From an uncultured Verrucomicrobiota bacterium (GTDB lineage Bacteria; Verrucomicrobiota; Kiritimatiellia; CAIVKH01), in contig CALMUP010000008.1 in NCBI GenBank assembly GCA_937872895.1, positions 132,976-196,975 of the forward strand: 64,000 nucleotides of DNA, given 5' to 3'. The stretch's first letter is position 1. Every line of letters begins with the position of its first letter. The notes beneath the pieces are model-generated. The model saw nothing but the letters and a program-made list of their open reading frames with translations. It ran no database searches and was not told where the DNA came from. Made by a program: the position numbers and the translations under genes. Below are positions 1 through 12,801 of this stretch, piece after piece.

Positions 1-1
1 T

Positions 2-154
2 CATTTCGGTTCACAATCAACCTTCGTTCGCCACTACAAGGGGTTGATGACGGAAGCGGAGGCAAAAGCGTTCTGGTCGATCACACCGGAAGCCATTGCG
101 GGGGCCGGTAAGGTCATCAATCAAACCGAGAACACCGAGAGGGCCACGGCATGA
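2..154 (+). CDS. Tyrosine recombinase/integrase, C-terminal fragment (5' end outside window)
   Basis: An open frame enters from the left edge and ends at TGA 152-154, giving about 50 residues. The stretch FVRHYKGLMTEAEAKAFWSI matches the tail of phage-type tyrosine recombinases, where HY(R/K)G.. carries the nucleophilic tyrosine and is followed by an acidic helix ending in FW.I. The catalytic Tyr would be in RHYKG, near base 34. The stop overlaps the ATG of the next gene (ATGA), so the two are probably co-transcribed. The rest of the enzyme (Arg, Lys, His boxes) lies outside the window. Identification rests on this short tail only, so family level is as far as it goes. Confidence 0.6.
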   Translation, partial: HFGSQSTFVRHYKGLMTEAEAKAFWSITPEAIAGAGKVINQTENTERATA

Positions 155-1005: not shown

Positions 1006-1209
1006 ATGAGTGAACCAAAATTGACTGACGGATACCTGAACCGGATCGAGGCCGCGAAATACCTGTCCGTGTCGCCACGGACCATTTCCGACCTGCAACG
1101 CCGCCGGTTGATCCCCGTGGTGAAGATTGCCGCGAAGTGCGTCCGCTACAAGCGGAGCGACCTGGACCGCGCCATGCGGGGGTTGACGGTTGAGGCGGTC
1201 GGGCTGTGA
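1006..1209 (+). CDS. Excisionase-family helix-turn-helix protein
   Basis: 67 residues. The start is set at ATG 1006 because AAGGAG at 994-999 sits 6 bases upstream; in-frame ATGs at 1003 and 976 are alternatives. The core YLNRIEAAKYLSVSPRTISD followed by a wing-like LIPVVKIAAKCVRYKRSDLD is the AlpA/excisionase pattern (MerR-like HTH_17): a first helix-turn-helix reading 'EAAKYLSVSPRTIS', then a conserved RY+.SDLD tail. Such proteins bind att or promoter DNA to direct excision or to switch element genes on. It overlaps the following replication ATPase by a GTGA junction, so the two are translationally coupled. Family call is firm; the exact role is inferred. Confidence 0.8.
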   Translation: MSEPKLTDGYLNRIEAAKYLSVSPRTISDLQRRRLIPVVKIAAKCVRYKRSDLDRAMRGLTVEAVGL

Positions 1210-3098
1210 GTACCACGGCACCGCCCGAAAAGAAAAAACCCCGCGCCGGGAAAGCAACAGGGCAAAGCACGAACTCCGGAAACCGTACCACACCCGGCGC
1301 CGGGGCGCAAGTTGGGTCCCCGGTCTATGACGAAAGCCTGATCCGGGAGGCCGGGGATTGCCGCCGATTTTGCCGCGAAAAGTTGGGCTACAGGCCCACC
1401 GAAATCAAAGGCGAGTTGGAGCGATACGACCACCACGGTTCTGCGTTGCGCGTCAACGGTCAATCCTTCGTTGCCGAGGACGGAACAACCGGCGACTTGA
1501 TCGACCTGGCCACCATGACCTACAACGGCGGGATTCGGCATGAAGCGGTCCGGGACTTGGCGTCCTGGTTGAACATCGCGCCGGTTCGGGCCGGGAAAAC
1601 GTGGGACTTCGACGCCCCCTTGCCGAGCATGAAGGCGACCACGCCACCACCGGCCGCGCCTCCGGTTCGGTCCGATGAAGTCGAGGCCGCGCTCCTCGGG
1701 GCCGCGCTGGCTGACCCGGCCGACGCTGAACGCATCCGCGACCTCGGGGTTGTGCCTGGCTGGTTCTATGAGCCGGACCACGCCGTCCTGTTTCGTGCCA
1801 TCGTGGATTCACCGAACGGCATCGCGCAAGTGATCGAAGCTCTACGCAAGGGCGGGCATGGACGGTTGGCCGATTCCCTGCACACCCTGATTGACCACGC
1901 CGCGACCGCGACCGCGATCCGTTGGCACGTGGACAAACTGCGGGAGGCTTACCACCGCCGCCAATTGATCGACTTGGCCATGTTGCTACGTGAGAAGGCG
2001 CATGAAGGCGACTTGACGACGCTTCTCGAATCGGTCCGCGATCACCTCGACCGGATCGACGGAGCCGAGGGCGTTTCGGCCGACTTCATCGCGGCCGCGA
2101 AGTTGCTGACCACCGAGCCGCCCCCGGCCGACCAGATCATCCGCGACTTGCTGGACGCTGGCGACAAGCTGGCATCCATCGCCGCCAGCAAGACACGCAA
2201 AACGTTCCTCATGCTTCAACTGGTTATCGCGGTTTCCACTGGCGGGATGTTCGCCGGCCTGGAGATCCCCACGCCGCGCCGCGTCCTGTATGTCAACCTG
2301 GAGATTCGGGGCCACCACTTCCACCGCCGCCTGAAGCGGTTGGCCGCCCGACTGAAGGCCGACGCCGCCTTGCTGGGGAAAAATCTTTTCGTGGTGAACG
2401 TCCGCGACCGACAACCACCCTCGATCACCTTGCGCGAAATCGAAAAAATCGCGGTGAAGGTCGGGGCCGAACTGATCGTCACCGACCCGATCTACAAGCT
2501 GCACCATGGCGACGAAAACGCCGCCGCCGATATGAAGCCGCTCCTGGCCGACTTCGACGCGCTGACGCGGAACACAGGGGCCGCTGTGGCCTACGTACAC
2601 CATGACGCCAAGGGCACCGTTGGCGACCGCAAGGCGGCCGATCGCGGGGCCGGATCGAACGTGATCGGCCGGGACTATGACGCCGCCCTGATCCAATCGC
2701 CGCACCGAACGGATGCCGAGGCCGTCGTGGTCGAGTTTGTCGCACGAAACTACGCACCTCGGGATGCCGTGGTGTTGCGTTGGTCGGATGGAGCCTTTGA
2801 AGTTGCCGAGGAGTTGGAGGCGACCAAGGAAAGCACCGCCGGCGGCCGCACGTCCGCGCCATCGAAGGCGGTCGAGGAGTATGTCGATCGTGCATTCCGG
2901 ATTGTGGTCAGGAAACCGCTGCCCGCGACGATATTTCACGACAAGCTGAAAACGGAACTCGGACTGTCGGAGCAACGGGCAAGGGCGCTCACCCACCACC
3001 TGATTGAGTCCGGCACCCTAGCCAAGTCGAAGCGCCAAGGCATGGGCGGGCCTATCCTGGTAGGCGCACCCGGGGCCATCGCGGAGGTGTCTAAATGA
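1206..3098 (+). CDS. RepA-like replication ATPase with DnaB-N-like segment
   Basis: 630 residues from GTG 1206, overlapping the HTH gene stop. Residues about 50-125 resemble the end of a CHC2-type primase domain (SFVAEDGTTGDLIDLA) without cysteines. Residues about 155-290 resemble the helical DnaB N-terminal domain (VEAALLGAALADPADAERI). Residues about 315-530 form a RecA-fold ATPase of the plasmid RepA/AAA_25 type: ASKTRKTF near 328 stands at the Walker A place, VLYVNLEI and LIVTDPIYKLH (Walker B, Asp) follow, then AYVHHDAKG. The C-terminus looks like a winged helix (ALTHHLIESGTLAKSK). The P-loop lacks the usual G.. start, as in many element RepA relatives. It probably loads or drives replication of the element from the repeats just downstream. 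Confidence 0.75.
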   Translation: MSTTAPPEKKKPRAGKATGQSTNSGNRTTPGAGAQVGSPVYDESLIREAGDCRRFCREKLGYRPTEIKGELERYDHHGSALRVNGQSFVAEDGTTGDLIDLATMTYNGGIRHEAVRDLASWLNIAPVRAGKTWDFDAPLPSMKATTPPPAAPPVRSDEVEAALLGAALADPADAERIRDLGVVPGWFYEPDHAVLFRAIVDSPNGIAQVIEALRKGGHGRLADSLHTLIDHAATATAIRWHVDKLREAYHRRQLIDLAMLLREKAHEGDLTTLLESVRDHLDRIDGAEGVSADFIAAAKLLTTEPPPADQIIRDLLDAGDKLASIAASKTRKTFLMLQLVIAVSTGGMFAGLEIPTPRRVLYVNLEIRGHHFHRRLKRLAARLKADAALLGKNLFVVNVRDRQPPSITLREIEKIAVKVGAELIVTDPIYKLHHGDENAAADMKPLLADFDALTRNTGAAVAYVHHDAKGTVGDRKAADRGAGSNVIGRDYDAALIQSPHRTDAEAVVVEFVARNYAPRDAVVLRWSDGAFEVAEELEATKESTAGGRTSAPSKAVEEYVDRAFRIVVRKPLPATIFHDKLKTELGLSEQRARALTHHLIESGTLAKSKRQGMGGPILVGAPGAIAEVSK

Positions 3099-3107
3099 CC
3101 ATTCCCC

Positions 3108-3220
3108 ATATTCGACGGTCGGGCCGCCATATTCGACGGCACGAAGTAGCCAATAAAATCAGCATATTCGACATATTCGACACCCCTGCTTTATTCGCCA
3201 CCATCGGATATATATTCGAC
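3108..3220 (+). repeat. Iteron-like ATATTCGAC direct repeats, candidate replication origin
   Basis: The 9-mer ATATTCGAC occurs five times on the + strand at 3108-3116, 3129-3137, 3164-3172, 3173-3181 and 3212-3220. Copies 1-2 are 21 bp apart, about two helical turns, and copies 3-4 abut. A weaker TTATTCGCC lies at 3191. The stretch is A+T-rich compared with its surroundings and starts 10 bp after the RepA-like gene. Iterons next to a rep gene are the classical plasmid/phage origin layout; origin function is inferred. Confidence 0.55.
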
Positions 3221-3246
3221 ACACACGCTATCTTTATAGCGTGTGT
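3221..3246 (+). other. Perfect 11-bp inverted repeat beside the iterons
   Basis: ACACACGCTAT (3221-3231) and ATAGCGTGTGT (3236-3246) are exact reverse complements separated by CTTT. It directly abuts the last iteron copy. Such a cruciform could be a nick/unwinding site, an operator for the neighbouring genes or a transcription terminator for the replication gene; the T-run is absent. Confidence 0.5.
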
Positions 3247-3282
3247 CAAATGTATATGGGCGCTGTCGGAGATAGCCTGACC

Positions 3283-3516
3283 ATGCGCCGGAAAGCACAC
3301 CGCCCCGGCTTGCTGGACGTGGCCGCCCGGATGCCGCCGCTTCACCACAACCCCGAAGGCAACTACGCCCCGTGGCGGTCCGAGGTTGTCACCTGGCTAT
3401 TGTGCCAACCGGAGATCCAACAACACGTGTTCAACCTGGCCGCTGGCCGCCGCCTGATCCAGTACGACCGCGCAACCGGCCTGTGGGTTGGCCGGGACCG
3501 GAGGGGCGACACTTGA
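3283..3516 (+). CDS. Small hypothetical protein of integrative element
   Basis: 77 residues from ATG 3283 (GGAG lies 11 bases upstream; ATGs at 3250 and 3256 are in-frame alternatives). The sequence has a tryptophan-containing core (APWRSEVVTWLLCQPEIQQH) and ends LIQYDRATGLWVGRDRRGDT. I do not recognise it. Codon use is like the flanking element genes and the frame is open with few alternatives, so it is probably real. It follows the putative origin. Confidence 0.45.
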   Translation: MRRKAHRPGLLDVAARMPPLHHNPEGNYAPWRSEVVTWLLCQPEIQQHVFNLAAGRRLIQYDRATGLWVGRDRRGDT

Positions 3517-4227: not shown

Positions 4228-4437
4228 ATGACCACACGCACCGCCGCACCCGCAACGTATCCGACCTTCGCCGCCCTTCGCCGGGGCCACGTCAACGCCC
4301 TCCGGGGGAACATCCATCAAAGCGCGATCCTGCTGGACGCGCTCGAGGGCGACCTCGGGCCGACACCGGCCACCCGGAAAGCCACCCGCGCCCTTGCCGC
4401 CCTCGCCGCCGCGGTCAACGACATCCGGGCCAAGTGA
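4228..4437 (+). CDS. Small hypothetical protein coupled to the recombinase
   Basis: 69 residues from ATG 4228, with AAAGGA at 4213-4218 upstream. A longer frame from GTG 4144 would add a hydrophobic stretch (ALATILLLILGARLF), but its start would lie on the -10 box, so I prefer the short form. The protein is Ala/Thr/Arg-rich with a helical middle (GHVNALRGNIHQSAILLDAL). Its stop overlaps the GTG start of the recombinase (GTGA), indicating translational coupling. Function unknown; small proteins in this place often modulate recombination direction. Confidence 0.45.
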   Translation: MTTRTAAPATYPTFAALRRGHVNALRGNIHQSAILLDALEGDLGPTPATRKATRALAALAAAVNDIRAK

Positions 4438-5312
4438 TCGACGCCTTTGTTGATGCCGTCTTGTTCGACAGTGGCACGACCTCGGCCACGGCGAAGGCCT
4501 ACGGCGCCACCCTTCGCCGCCTGGGCCATTGGGCGGCCGCCCGGGGGCGCACCTTGGCCGACCTCGACCGGCACGACCTCCGGGCCTACCTGGACGACTT
4601 GGGGCGCGCCGGTCTGAAGGCAAGCCACCGCGCCGGGGTTGCCGGGACGCTTCGACGCTTCTTTGCCTGGGCGCACGACACCCGGCACGTGGCGAACAAT
4701 CCGGCGGTTGGGATCCAATCGCCGCGCATCGGCCGGCGGTTGCCGCGGGCGATCCCTCGGGACCGGATCGAGAAATTGTTGAGCGCACCCGATACGGCGA
4801 CGCCCGCGGGCATCCGGGACCATGCCTTGCTGGCCATGCTCTATGCGACCGGATGCCGCGTGTCGGAGCTGGTCGGCCTGGGCCTTCACGATTTGGACCT
4901 CGCCACCAGGACGGTAAAAGTTTGTGGCAAGGGAGGCCACGAGCGGCTTTGTCTGTTCGGCCACCACGCCGCCCGCGCCCTGGCCGACTGGCTGGCCGTT
5001 CGGCAATCCTTCAATCCGCACCGGATGGAGCGGTCTCTGTTCGTCGGCCGTCGCGGTCGGGGGATGGACCGCCGCCGCGTCTGGGCGCTCGTCCGCGATC
5101 ACGGCCGCGCTGCCGGGATCGGGGATGTTTGGCCGCACCAGATGCGCCATTCATGCGCAACGCACTTGCTCGAGGGGGGCGCAGACCTCCGGGTCATTCA
5201 AACGCTGTTGGGGCATCGGTCTCTTTCGACCACCGCCGTCTATACCAGCGTGTCGGCCGAACGCCTCCGGGCCGTGATCGACCAGTACCACCCGCGCCGG
5301 TCCACCGCCTGA
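4434..5312 (+). CDS. Tyrosine recombinase/integrase of the element
   Basis: 292 residues from GTG 4434. The N-terminal SAM-like core-binding domain (about 1-90) is followed by the catalytic domain with all expected boxes: Arg in TGCRVSEL, Lys in CGKGGHERL, HxxR in PHQMRHSCATHL, His in LLGHRSLSTT and the nucleophile in AVYTSV. The whole resembles XerC/XerD rather than the larger phage lambda-type Int. It cuts and rejoins DNA through a 3'-phosphotyrosine. Placed 215 bp before a tRNA-Leu gene, it is well placed to integrate the element there. It lacks the additional alpha-I2 patch that marks integron integrases, so it is not IntI. The stop leads into an att-like spacer. Confidence 0.9.
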   Translation: MIDAFVDAVLFDSGTTSATAKAYGATLRRLGHWAAARGRTLADLDRHDLRAYLDDLGRAGLKASHRAGVAGTLRRFFAWAHDTRHVANNPAVGIQSPRIGRRLPRAIPRDRIEKLLSAPDTATPAGIRDHALLAMLYATGCRVSELVGLGLHDLDLATRTVKVCGKGGHERLCLFGHHAARALADWLAVRQSFNPHRMERSLFVGRRGRGMDRRRVWALVRDHGRAAGIGDVWPHQMRHSCATHLLEGGADLRVIQTLLGHRSLSTTAVYTSVSAERLRAVIDQYHPRRSTA

Positions 5313-5526
5313 CCTTGCCACGACCGGCACCGCGCCCGCCTGGGCCGTTTTACGCGGTCCACGGTGAACGAGCGTTCACTTACCGGGTGAATCTGTTGAC
5401 ATGCTGTTGACAAAAAAGCCGCCTAAATGGTCAATTATGCGCCACCATGCGCCAAGTGTGGTACGATGGAGAAAAGCCGCAAAACAGCCTAAAAATAAGG
5501 GAAATATGCGGTTTTTCGATCAAATC
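5313..5526. other. Recombinase-tRNA spacer with short direct repeats (candidate att region)
   Basis: This spacer holds two CTGTTGACA copies 11 bp apart (TTGACA at 5396-5401 and 5407-5412) and two ATGCGCCA copies between 5437 and 5454. Short phased direct repeats beside a recombinase gene suit recombinase or Xis binding. The tRNA promoter must also lie here; GTACGAT near 5461 is a possible -10. No gene is seen. Confidence 0.35.
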
Positions 5527-5607
5527 GGGCACGTGGTGAAATGGCAGACACGCAAGACTTAGGATCTTGTGCCGCAAGGCGTGGGGGTTCAAGTCCCTCC
5601 GTGCCCA
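5527..5607 (+). tRNA. tRNA-Leu (anticodon UAG)
   Basis: An 81-base cloverleaf: acceptor GGGCACG (5527-5533) pairs with CGTGCCC (5600-5606), discriminator A at 5607. The anticodon arm CAAGA-CTTAGGA-TCTTG has UAG at the wobble-to-third positions, reading CUA/CUN leucine codons. GGTTCAAGT gives the T-loop, and a short variable arm (class II) is present. CCA is not encoded (AGGATC follows), so it must be added by the CCA-adding enzyme. It lies immediately right of the recombinase and is the likely integration target. Confidence 0.93.
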
Positions 5608-5624
5608 GGATCAGTGAAGACACA

Positions 5625-5732
5625 ACGTTCAACTTTCAACATCGAACATTCAATTGCGGATGGTTGATGTATGGATGATGGAAAAATGTCCCCGTTTCGG
5701 TCGTTGAATGTTGGATGTTGAAAGTTGAACGT
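5625..5732. repeat. Heptamer-repeat inverted repeat, locus A
   Basis: Left arm 5625-5653 and right arm 5704-5732 are 29-bp reverse complements with one mismatch, enclosing a 50-bp loop. The right side reads as tandem heptamers of the type GTTGAAT/GTTGGAT/GTTGAAA/GTTGAAC/GTTGGAA (5703-5737). It fills the space between tRNA-Leu and hemW. A second locus of the same family lies at 12,675-12,801. Confidence 0.85.
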
Positions 5733-5749
5733 TGGAAGTTGCATCCCCA

Positions 5750-12674: not shown

Positions 12675-12801
12675 GATTCAACTTTCAACTTCCAACATTC
12701 AACGTTCAACATGCACTGTTCGCGGGCGAAAAAAGATCATCTGTTGGAAGCTGAGTGTTGAACGTTGGAAGTTGAACGTTGGACGTTGTACGTTGAATCT
12801 T
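12675..12801. repeat. Heptamer-repeat inverted repeat, locus B
   Basis: The left arm, from 12,675 to about 12,711, holds five heptamers in TTCAAC orientation. The right arm (about 12,744-12,801) holds eight in GTTGAAC orientation (GTTGGAA, GTTGAAC, GTTGGAC, GTTGTAC, GTTGAAT). The arms are imperfect reverse complements around a loop of about 30 bases. It fills the gap between topA and xerC and reaches the possible start region of xerC. Same family as 5,625-5,732. Confidence 0.85.

Follow-up and report, generated by a model that had tools for sequence, protein, structure and literature searches.

What is the function of the short, repeat-bearing segment that directly follows a replication ATPase gene in this uncultured bacterium? 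In the window (the whole 64-kb stretch of DNA that was analysed), a reading made from the sequence only had placed a plasmid- or satellite-type replication origin at this position, inside an integrated element. Based on the analyses described here, the region at 3099-3260 very likely serves a 6.7-kb integrative element as its replication origin, in which iterons would be bound by the element's own Rep protein and a hairpin would serve priming or melting.

The integrated element is real, as the earlier reading had supposed, because it is framed by 41-bp direct repeats and because tRNA-Leu is intact in a same-genus genome. DNA to the left of the window was added (L001) to complete the element, which spans 6,679 bp and is bounded by the repeats (CGGGCACGTGGTGAAATGGCAGACACGCAAGACTTAGGATC) at 5526-5566 and at L001 13823-13863. 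The repeat corresponds to the 5' half of tRNA-Leu as far as the anticodon loop, and in the same-genus genome both the tRNA-Leu and the bases preceding it are uninterrupted. The right-hand copy (attR core, 5526-5566, + strand; its partner is 6,679 bp upstream) coincides with a tRNA at 5527-5607. At 5526-5607, the intact tRNA-Leu now stands behind element sequence, which must provide the tRNA promoter. A search of the genome for a second copy of the element found none. The related elements L044, L045, and L055 carry tRNA repeats on their flanks as well. Further to the right, 5622-5738 contains an extended, imperfect inverted repeat in which TTCAACTTTCAAC/GTTGAAAGTTGAA is abundant, and similar text occurs at about 12690-12800; Rfam returned only weak, chance-like microRNA matches for this repeat, which may be one that is dispersed in the genome.

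The gene order of the element is int1, orf246, an AlpA-like HTH gene, and rep, followed by the origin segment, several small ORFs, and int2 (XerC-like), and the order of int, HTH, rep, and origin is repeated in L044, L045, and L052. The first gene encodes a tyrosine recombinase of 396 aa (PF00589, 1.8e-6) that starts 1,036 bases before window base 1 (L001 13940-15130) and has its 3' end at 1-154 (+ strand). It is followed by orf246 (151-891, +), which belongs to no known family and whose ATG overlaps the int1 stop by 4 nt (ATGA), and by an AlpA/excisionase-like HTH_17 protein (976-1209, +; PF12728, 1.7e-8; phrog_66, excisionase and transcriptional regulator, 9.9e-10) that has a 4-nt overlap with rep (1206-3098, +; 630 aa). 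Both overlaps, int1/orf246 (150-154) and HTH/rep (1206-1209), resemble the int/iolg overlap of PICMI satellites. Downstream of the origin segment lie a small ORF of 77 aa (3283-3516, +; PHROG 16687, of unknown function), with a homologue behind the origin of L053, and int2 (4434-5312, +; 292 aa; PF00589, 1.2e-40). The element therefore has two tyrosine recombinases, int1 at the attL end and the XerC-like int2 at the attR end, and dimer resolution is a possible role of int2.

Rep consists of a low-confidence N terminus, a DnaB-type N-terminal domain (PF00772, 7e-6), an AAA_25 motor (PF13481, 1.8e-31), and a C-terminal winged helix; the Pfam scan recognised no primase domain in it, and a prim-pol domain is also absent. 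When a structural model built with 22 relatives was searched with Foldseek, the best match was DnaB (2r6a, E 4.9e-18), with an alignment that spans the motor and the N-terminal domain. Whole-chain TM-scores were modest (about 0.3-0.45), as would be expected if the domains are flexibly arranged and the N terminus is disordered. At the C terminus, the last 83 residues adopt a winged-helix fold in the AlphaFold model (mean pLDDT 83.5), and their best Foldseek matches were nearly all winged-helix DNA-binding proteins, with weak E-values of at least 0.003. The earlier description of the protein as RepA-like thus applies to the motor domain identified by Pfam, whereas the protein as a whole is, according to the models and Foldseek, a DnaB-like fold plus a C-terminal winged helix. 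The P-loop (residues 326-333, window about 2181-2204) reads ASKTRKT in place of the usual GxGKS/T; S328, K329, and K332 are invariant in the 22 relatives, with the consensus GxSKxRKS. In some relatives, the same motor is preceded by a prim-pol (L016) or TOPRIM primase domain (L034).

Exact matching confirmed the five identical 9-mers of the sequence-only reading, two of them in tandem and two 21 bp apart. All copies of ATATTCGAC are on the + strand, at 3108-3116, 3129-3137, 3164-3172, 3173-3181 (in tandem with the third), and 3212-3220, with start-to-start distances of 21, 35, 9, and 39, and the array begins 10 bp past the rep stop (which ends at 3098). Within the 64-kb window the 9-mer occurs nowhere else; its chance expectation is a mean of 0.28 per 64 kb, and five or more copies arose in 0 of 100 shuffles. 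Genome-wide there are nine copies in 3.87 Mb, the five of the array and four in the rest. When 3099-3300 was Markov-shuffled 20,000 times, no 9-mer occurred four times or more. The element thus carries short direct repeats, both tandem and spaced, beside an initiator gene, although the irregular spacing of the iterons counts against the origin reading. A coding explanation of the repeats was rejected: the 9-mers are split between two reading frames, and the ORF of 61 aa (3095-3280) that would read them is without relatives.

The perfect 11-bp inverted repeat that had been reported against the end of the array was likewise recovered. It forms a hairpin, ACACACGCTAT-CTTT-ATAGCGTGTGT, at 3221-3231/3236-3246 (11/11 complementary, 4-nt loop), whose first base adjoins the end of the last repeat and whose core, CTATCTTTATAG, contains the CTA/TAG loop motif that recurs among relatives (see below). 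The hairpin lies in an A+T-rich patch (GC 40-45% at 3130-3249 vs. about 63-70% in the surroundings), so that the segment with the repeats also holds a candidate melting region. Absent from the earlier reading was an outer inverted repeat of 17 nt (15/17 matching) that brackets the hairpin; its left arm is iteron 5, and its right arm is a degenerate inverted iteron, ACATTTGAC, at 3245-3253 (- strand, two mismatches). Among the hairpins of the window, that at 3221-3246 is the only A/T-cored one of the CTA/TAG type, and Rfam gave no matches in the repeat and hairpin segment.

Relatives of rep were collected by two genome searches and a targeted fetch, and 61 were left after near-identical origins had been removed. 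For each, the 250 bp behind rep were scored against windows at other offsets of the same sequences. The mean number of repeated 9-mer pairs was 2.72 in the post-rep windows, compared to 0.1-0.9 at other offsets, and at least three pairs were found in 36% of post-rep windows vs. 0-6% at every other offset (n = 61). Hairpins whose A/T-rich core is bounded by C-G or G-C pairs (hereafter, A/T-cored hairpins) were present in 26/61 post-rep windows and in 23/1032 others. Each relative has its own repeat and its own stem, and it is the loop core that recurs (CTTTAG/CTAAAG, CTTATAG, CTTATTATAG, and similar): a core starting with CTA or ending with TAG was found behind rep in 23 of the 61, compared to 1/1032 windows elsewhere (Fisher p about 4e-30). 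A version of the hairpin test that allowed one stem mismatch lost the contrast (20/61 vs. 106/1032) and was dropped.

Because the CTA/TAG motif had been defined on the same 61-member data, we made a hold-out set of 65 non-redundant IMG/VR viral contigs, found with a different alignment (two phylum-level relatives used to build this alignment, A3, were also in the discovery set; the scored contigs were new). Repeats were again concentrated behind rep (37/65 vs. 7/969 elsewhere), as were A/T-cored hairpins (28/65 vs. 24/969) and the CTA/TAG core (18/65 vs. 3/969), with CTACG as another common core. Because the sequences are related, the p-values of both sets are too small; this does not affect the contrast between each post-rep segment and the flanks of its own sequence. 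Seven of the viral contigs (L181, L194, L202, L227, L234, L236, and L239) have frequent perfect palindromes of the form TATATACTACGTATATA behind rep, with the core CTACG. Firmicutes phages (L072-L077) have their own repeats behind a primase-helicase gene, e.g., AAAATAGC and GCCGCTAT in L072, L076, and L077; their post-gene segments contain TATATA-rich cores, and the CTA/TAG hairpin was not found in them under the criteria used.

The enrichment is specific to the post-rep position when compared with two control gene families, even though not every relative has clear repeats. For chromosomal dnaB genes from the same class, the downstream segment contained the motif hairpin in 0/28 and repeats in 1/28 cases; for D5-helicase genes, the numbers were 0/10 and 1/10. 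A strict repeat or hairpin was missing, by the criteria used, in about two fifths of relatives or more. Some of this apparent lack reflects degenerate repeats that are visible by eye (L055), whereas L058 and L068 are truly without. Elements with common repeats mainly have alike Rep C termini, a positive relationship that is confounded by common descent. Relatives that keep rep and lack the repeats would have spoken against the earlier proposal; instead, the enrichment of post-rep repeats and hairpins in both the discovery and hold-out sets favours an origin. In total, the comparison covered more than 100 related elements and phages, most of which retain the layout while their sequences differ, and many have one loop motif in common. 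This retention of position and repeats, with divergence of the repeat sequence, supports the view that the segment is a plasmid- or satellite-type origin inside an integrated element. The analysis shows the layout, its specificity to the rep family, the winged helix, and the mobile element.

The same data bear on other explanations. The repeats could form an operator that binds a repressor or the AlpA-like protein and controls the small downstream genes, the hairpin being incidental. The segment does lie between rep and the downstream ORF, and AlpA proteins are regulators; however, a scan found no sigma-70-like promoter there, ATATTCGAC was not found ahead of int1, the HTH gene, or any other gene, and the feature tracks the rep family through phages and elements whose downstream genes differ. 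A dispersed operator would not be confined to one segment, whereas the remainder of the element has no copy of the 9-mer, and we consider this explanation unlikely. It is still less probable that the hairpin is a recombination site for int2, acting in dimer resolution or as a second attachment site. Although int2 is XerC-like and the 11-bp inverted arms recall dif, the spacer measures 4 bp rather than 6-8, the att sites are located elsewhere, and the hairpin is found behind rep whatever recombinases the relatives have, with stems that vary completely and a loop that recurs.

A terminator of the rep operon, with repeats by chance, is scarcely credible: a GC-containing hairpin does follow soon after the stop codon, but no T run follows it on either strand, the terminator scan did not report the hairpin, the recurrent part in relatives is the loop, flanked by iterons, and not a T tail, and chromosomal dnaB genes have no such hairpin behind them. 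Nor is a rolling-circle double-strand origin nicked in the hairpin loop any more credible, given that none of the element's proteins was recognised as an HUH nickase and that Rep is a DnaB-fold helicase, despite the hairpin-loop motif and a frequent loop of the hold-out phages, CTACG inside ACTACGT, which resembles the pMV158 nick sequence.

The replication origin reading places the segment among described systems. SaPI and PICI origins lie directly behind rep and have iterons at an A+T-rich region (PMC6092414), and the element shares with them an origin directly 3' of an initiator helicase gene, short iterons, an A+T-rich segment, and int at one end, as well as an AlpA-type regulator as in Gram-negative PICIs (PMC6092414, PMC7581432). 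In contrast to these systems, its Rep is of the AAA_25/DnaB type, outside the SaPI Rep families, its origin has a hairpin bracketed by inverted iterons, and no packaging or interference genes were recognised in it. PICMI satellites of Vibrionaceae are 6.1 kb in size, encode a DUF3987/DUF5906 primase, and integrate next to fis (PMC10803314). The element resembles them in its size (~6 kb), a second ORF overlapping int by 4 nt (ATGA), an HTH_17 AlpA protein, a replication gene, and a few small unknown ORFs (PMC10803314), and it has the integrase with a specific att site and the AlpA-type regulator of PICIs and PICMIs. It differs in its AAA_25/DnaB-type replication gene, tRNA-Leu site, and second tyrosine recombinase, and a Pfam scan of rep and the other ORFs found no DUF3987/DUF5906 primase, rep comprising AAA_25 and DnaB-N only. 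Because its replication gene comes from a different family and it has no known helper, we do not file the element as a PICMI.

The hairpin has its own counterparts. In pRN1, a stem-loop of variable sequence behind rep is both required and sufficient in cis (PMC4234260); as in the element, it lies just downstream of the replication gene, its stem varies while the structure is kept, and the initiator has a winged helix, whereas the pRN1 stem-loop is 100 nt long without iterons and its protein has an SF3 helicase and a prim-pol domain (PMC4234260). The stem of the element is short, its helicase has a DnaB fold, and its Rep is without prim-pol. In RSF1010, helicase action exposes hairpins for primase, and this IncQ oriV works with a RepA-type hexameric helicase and has iterons as well as single-strand initiation hairpins (PMC4434180, PMC4234260), to which the hairpin of the element may correspond. 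IncQ plasmids use three proteins, with a separate RepC for the iterons and the RepB' primase, compared to one Rep and no primase in the element; neither RepC nor RepB' was recognised among its scanned ORFs. The IncQ2 plasmid pRAS3.2 (L130) contains a hairpin with a CTTTAG core, AGAAGTTCTTTAGAACTTCT, at 2742-2761, 70 bp before three 22-bp repeats at 2834-2899. A second IncQ plasmid (L131) has no such hairpin, and with one plasmid having it and one lacking it there is no IncQ rule. In SCCmec, the C-terminal domain of Cch2 binds repeats behind its gene, and direct and inverted repeats lie directly behind the helicase gene as in the element, although Cch2 is of the D5/Primase_Cterm helicase family and its inverted repeats are dispensable for binding (PMC7581432). 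The probable origin is of a known kind, iterons directly downstream of rep (SaPI/PICI, SCCmec), with a hairpin as in pRN1 or IncQ; what is new is the recurrent loop motif, a putative signal.

In the proposed mechanism, Rep, a DnaB-type helicase, would bind the five ATATTCGAC iterons via its C-terminal winged helix. Initiators of SaPI and SCCmec bind repeats directly behind their own genes. Rep bound to the array and to the two iterons in inverted orientation would then place Rep hexamers on the A+T-rich patch, where the palindrome may extrude or melt. With lower confidence, the hairpin with its CTA/TAG loop may act as a priming entry or start site, like the ssi hairpins of IncQ, or alternatively as a melting dyad from which two helicases depart. 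Since the N-terminal domain of Rep is of the DnaB type and no primase domain is recognisable in the protein, host DnaG would supply the primers. Replication from the origin would begin once Int and the AlpA-like protein have excised the element, probably on phage induction.

The loop motif may have a wider role. We tentatively suggest, with somewhat less than even confidence, that the CTA/TAG loop (CTAAAG, CTATAAG, CTACG) on a variable stem is an origin signal specific to AAA_25-helicase replicons, in which the stem is free and the loop is fixed. It would be retained across elements and phages with prim-pol, TOPRIM, or DnaB-like N-terminal domains, and either the helicase or a primase of the host would recognise it for priming or loading. 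The reader of the motif could be Rep, a primase, or a host factor. An uncultured bacterial lineage commonly carries small integrated elements of this type, which usually go unannotated, and the results provide a rule for finding their origins: the first 250 bp behind an AAA_25 helicase gene should be searched for repeats together with a CTA/TAG-loop hairpin. If the loop is a real signal, there would be a common recognition step behind initiators with quite different primases.
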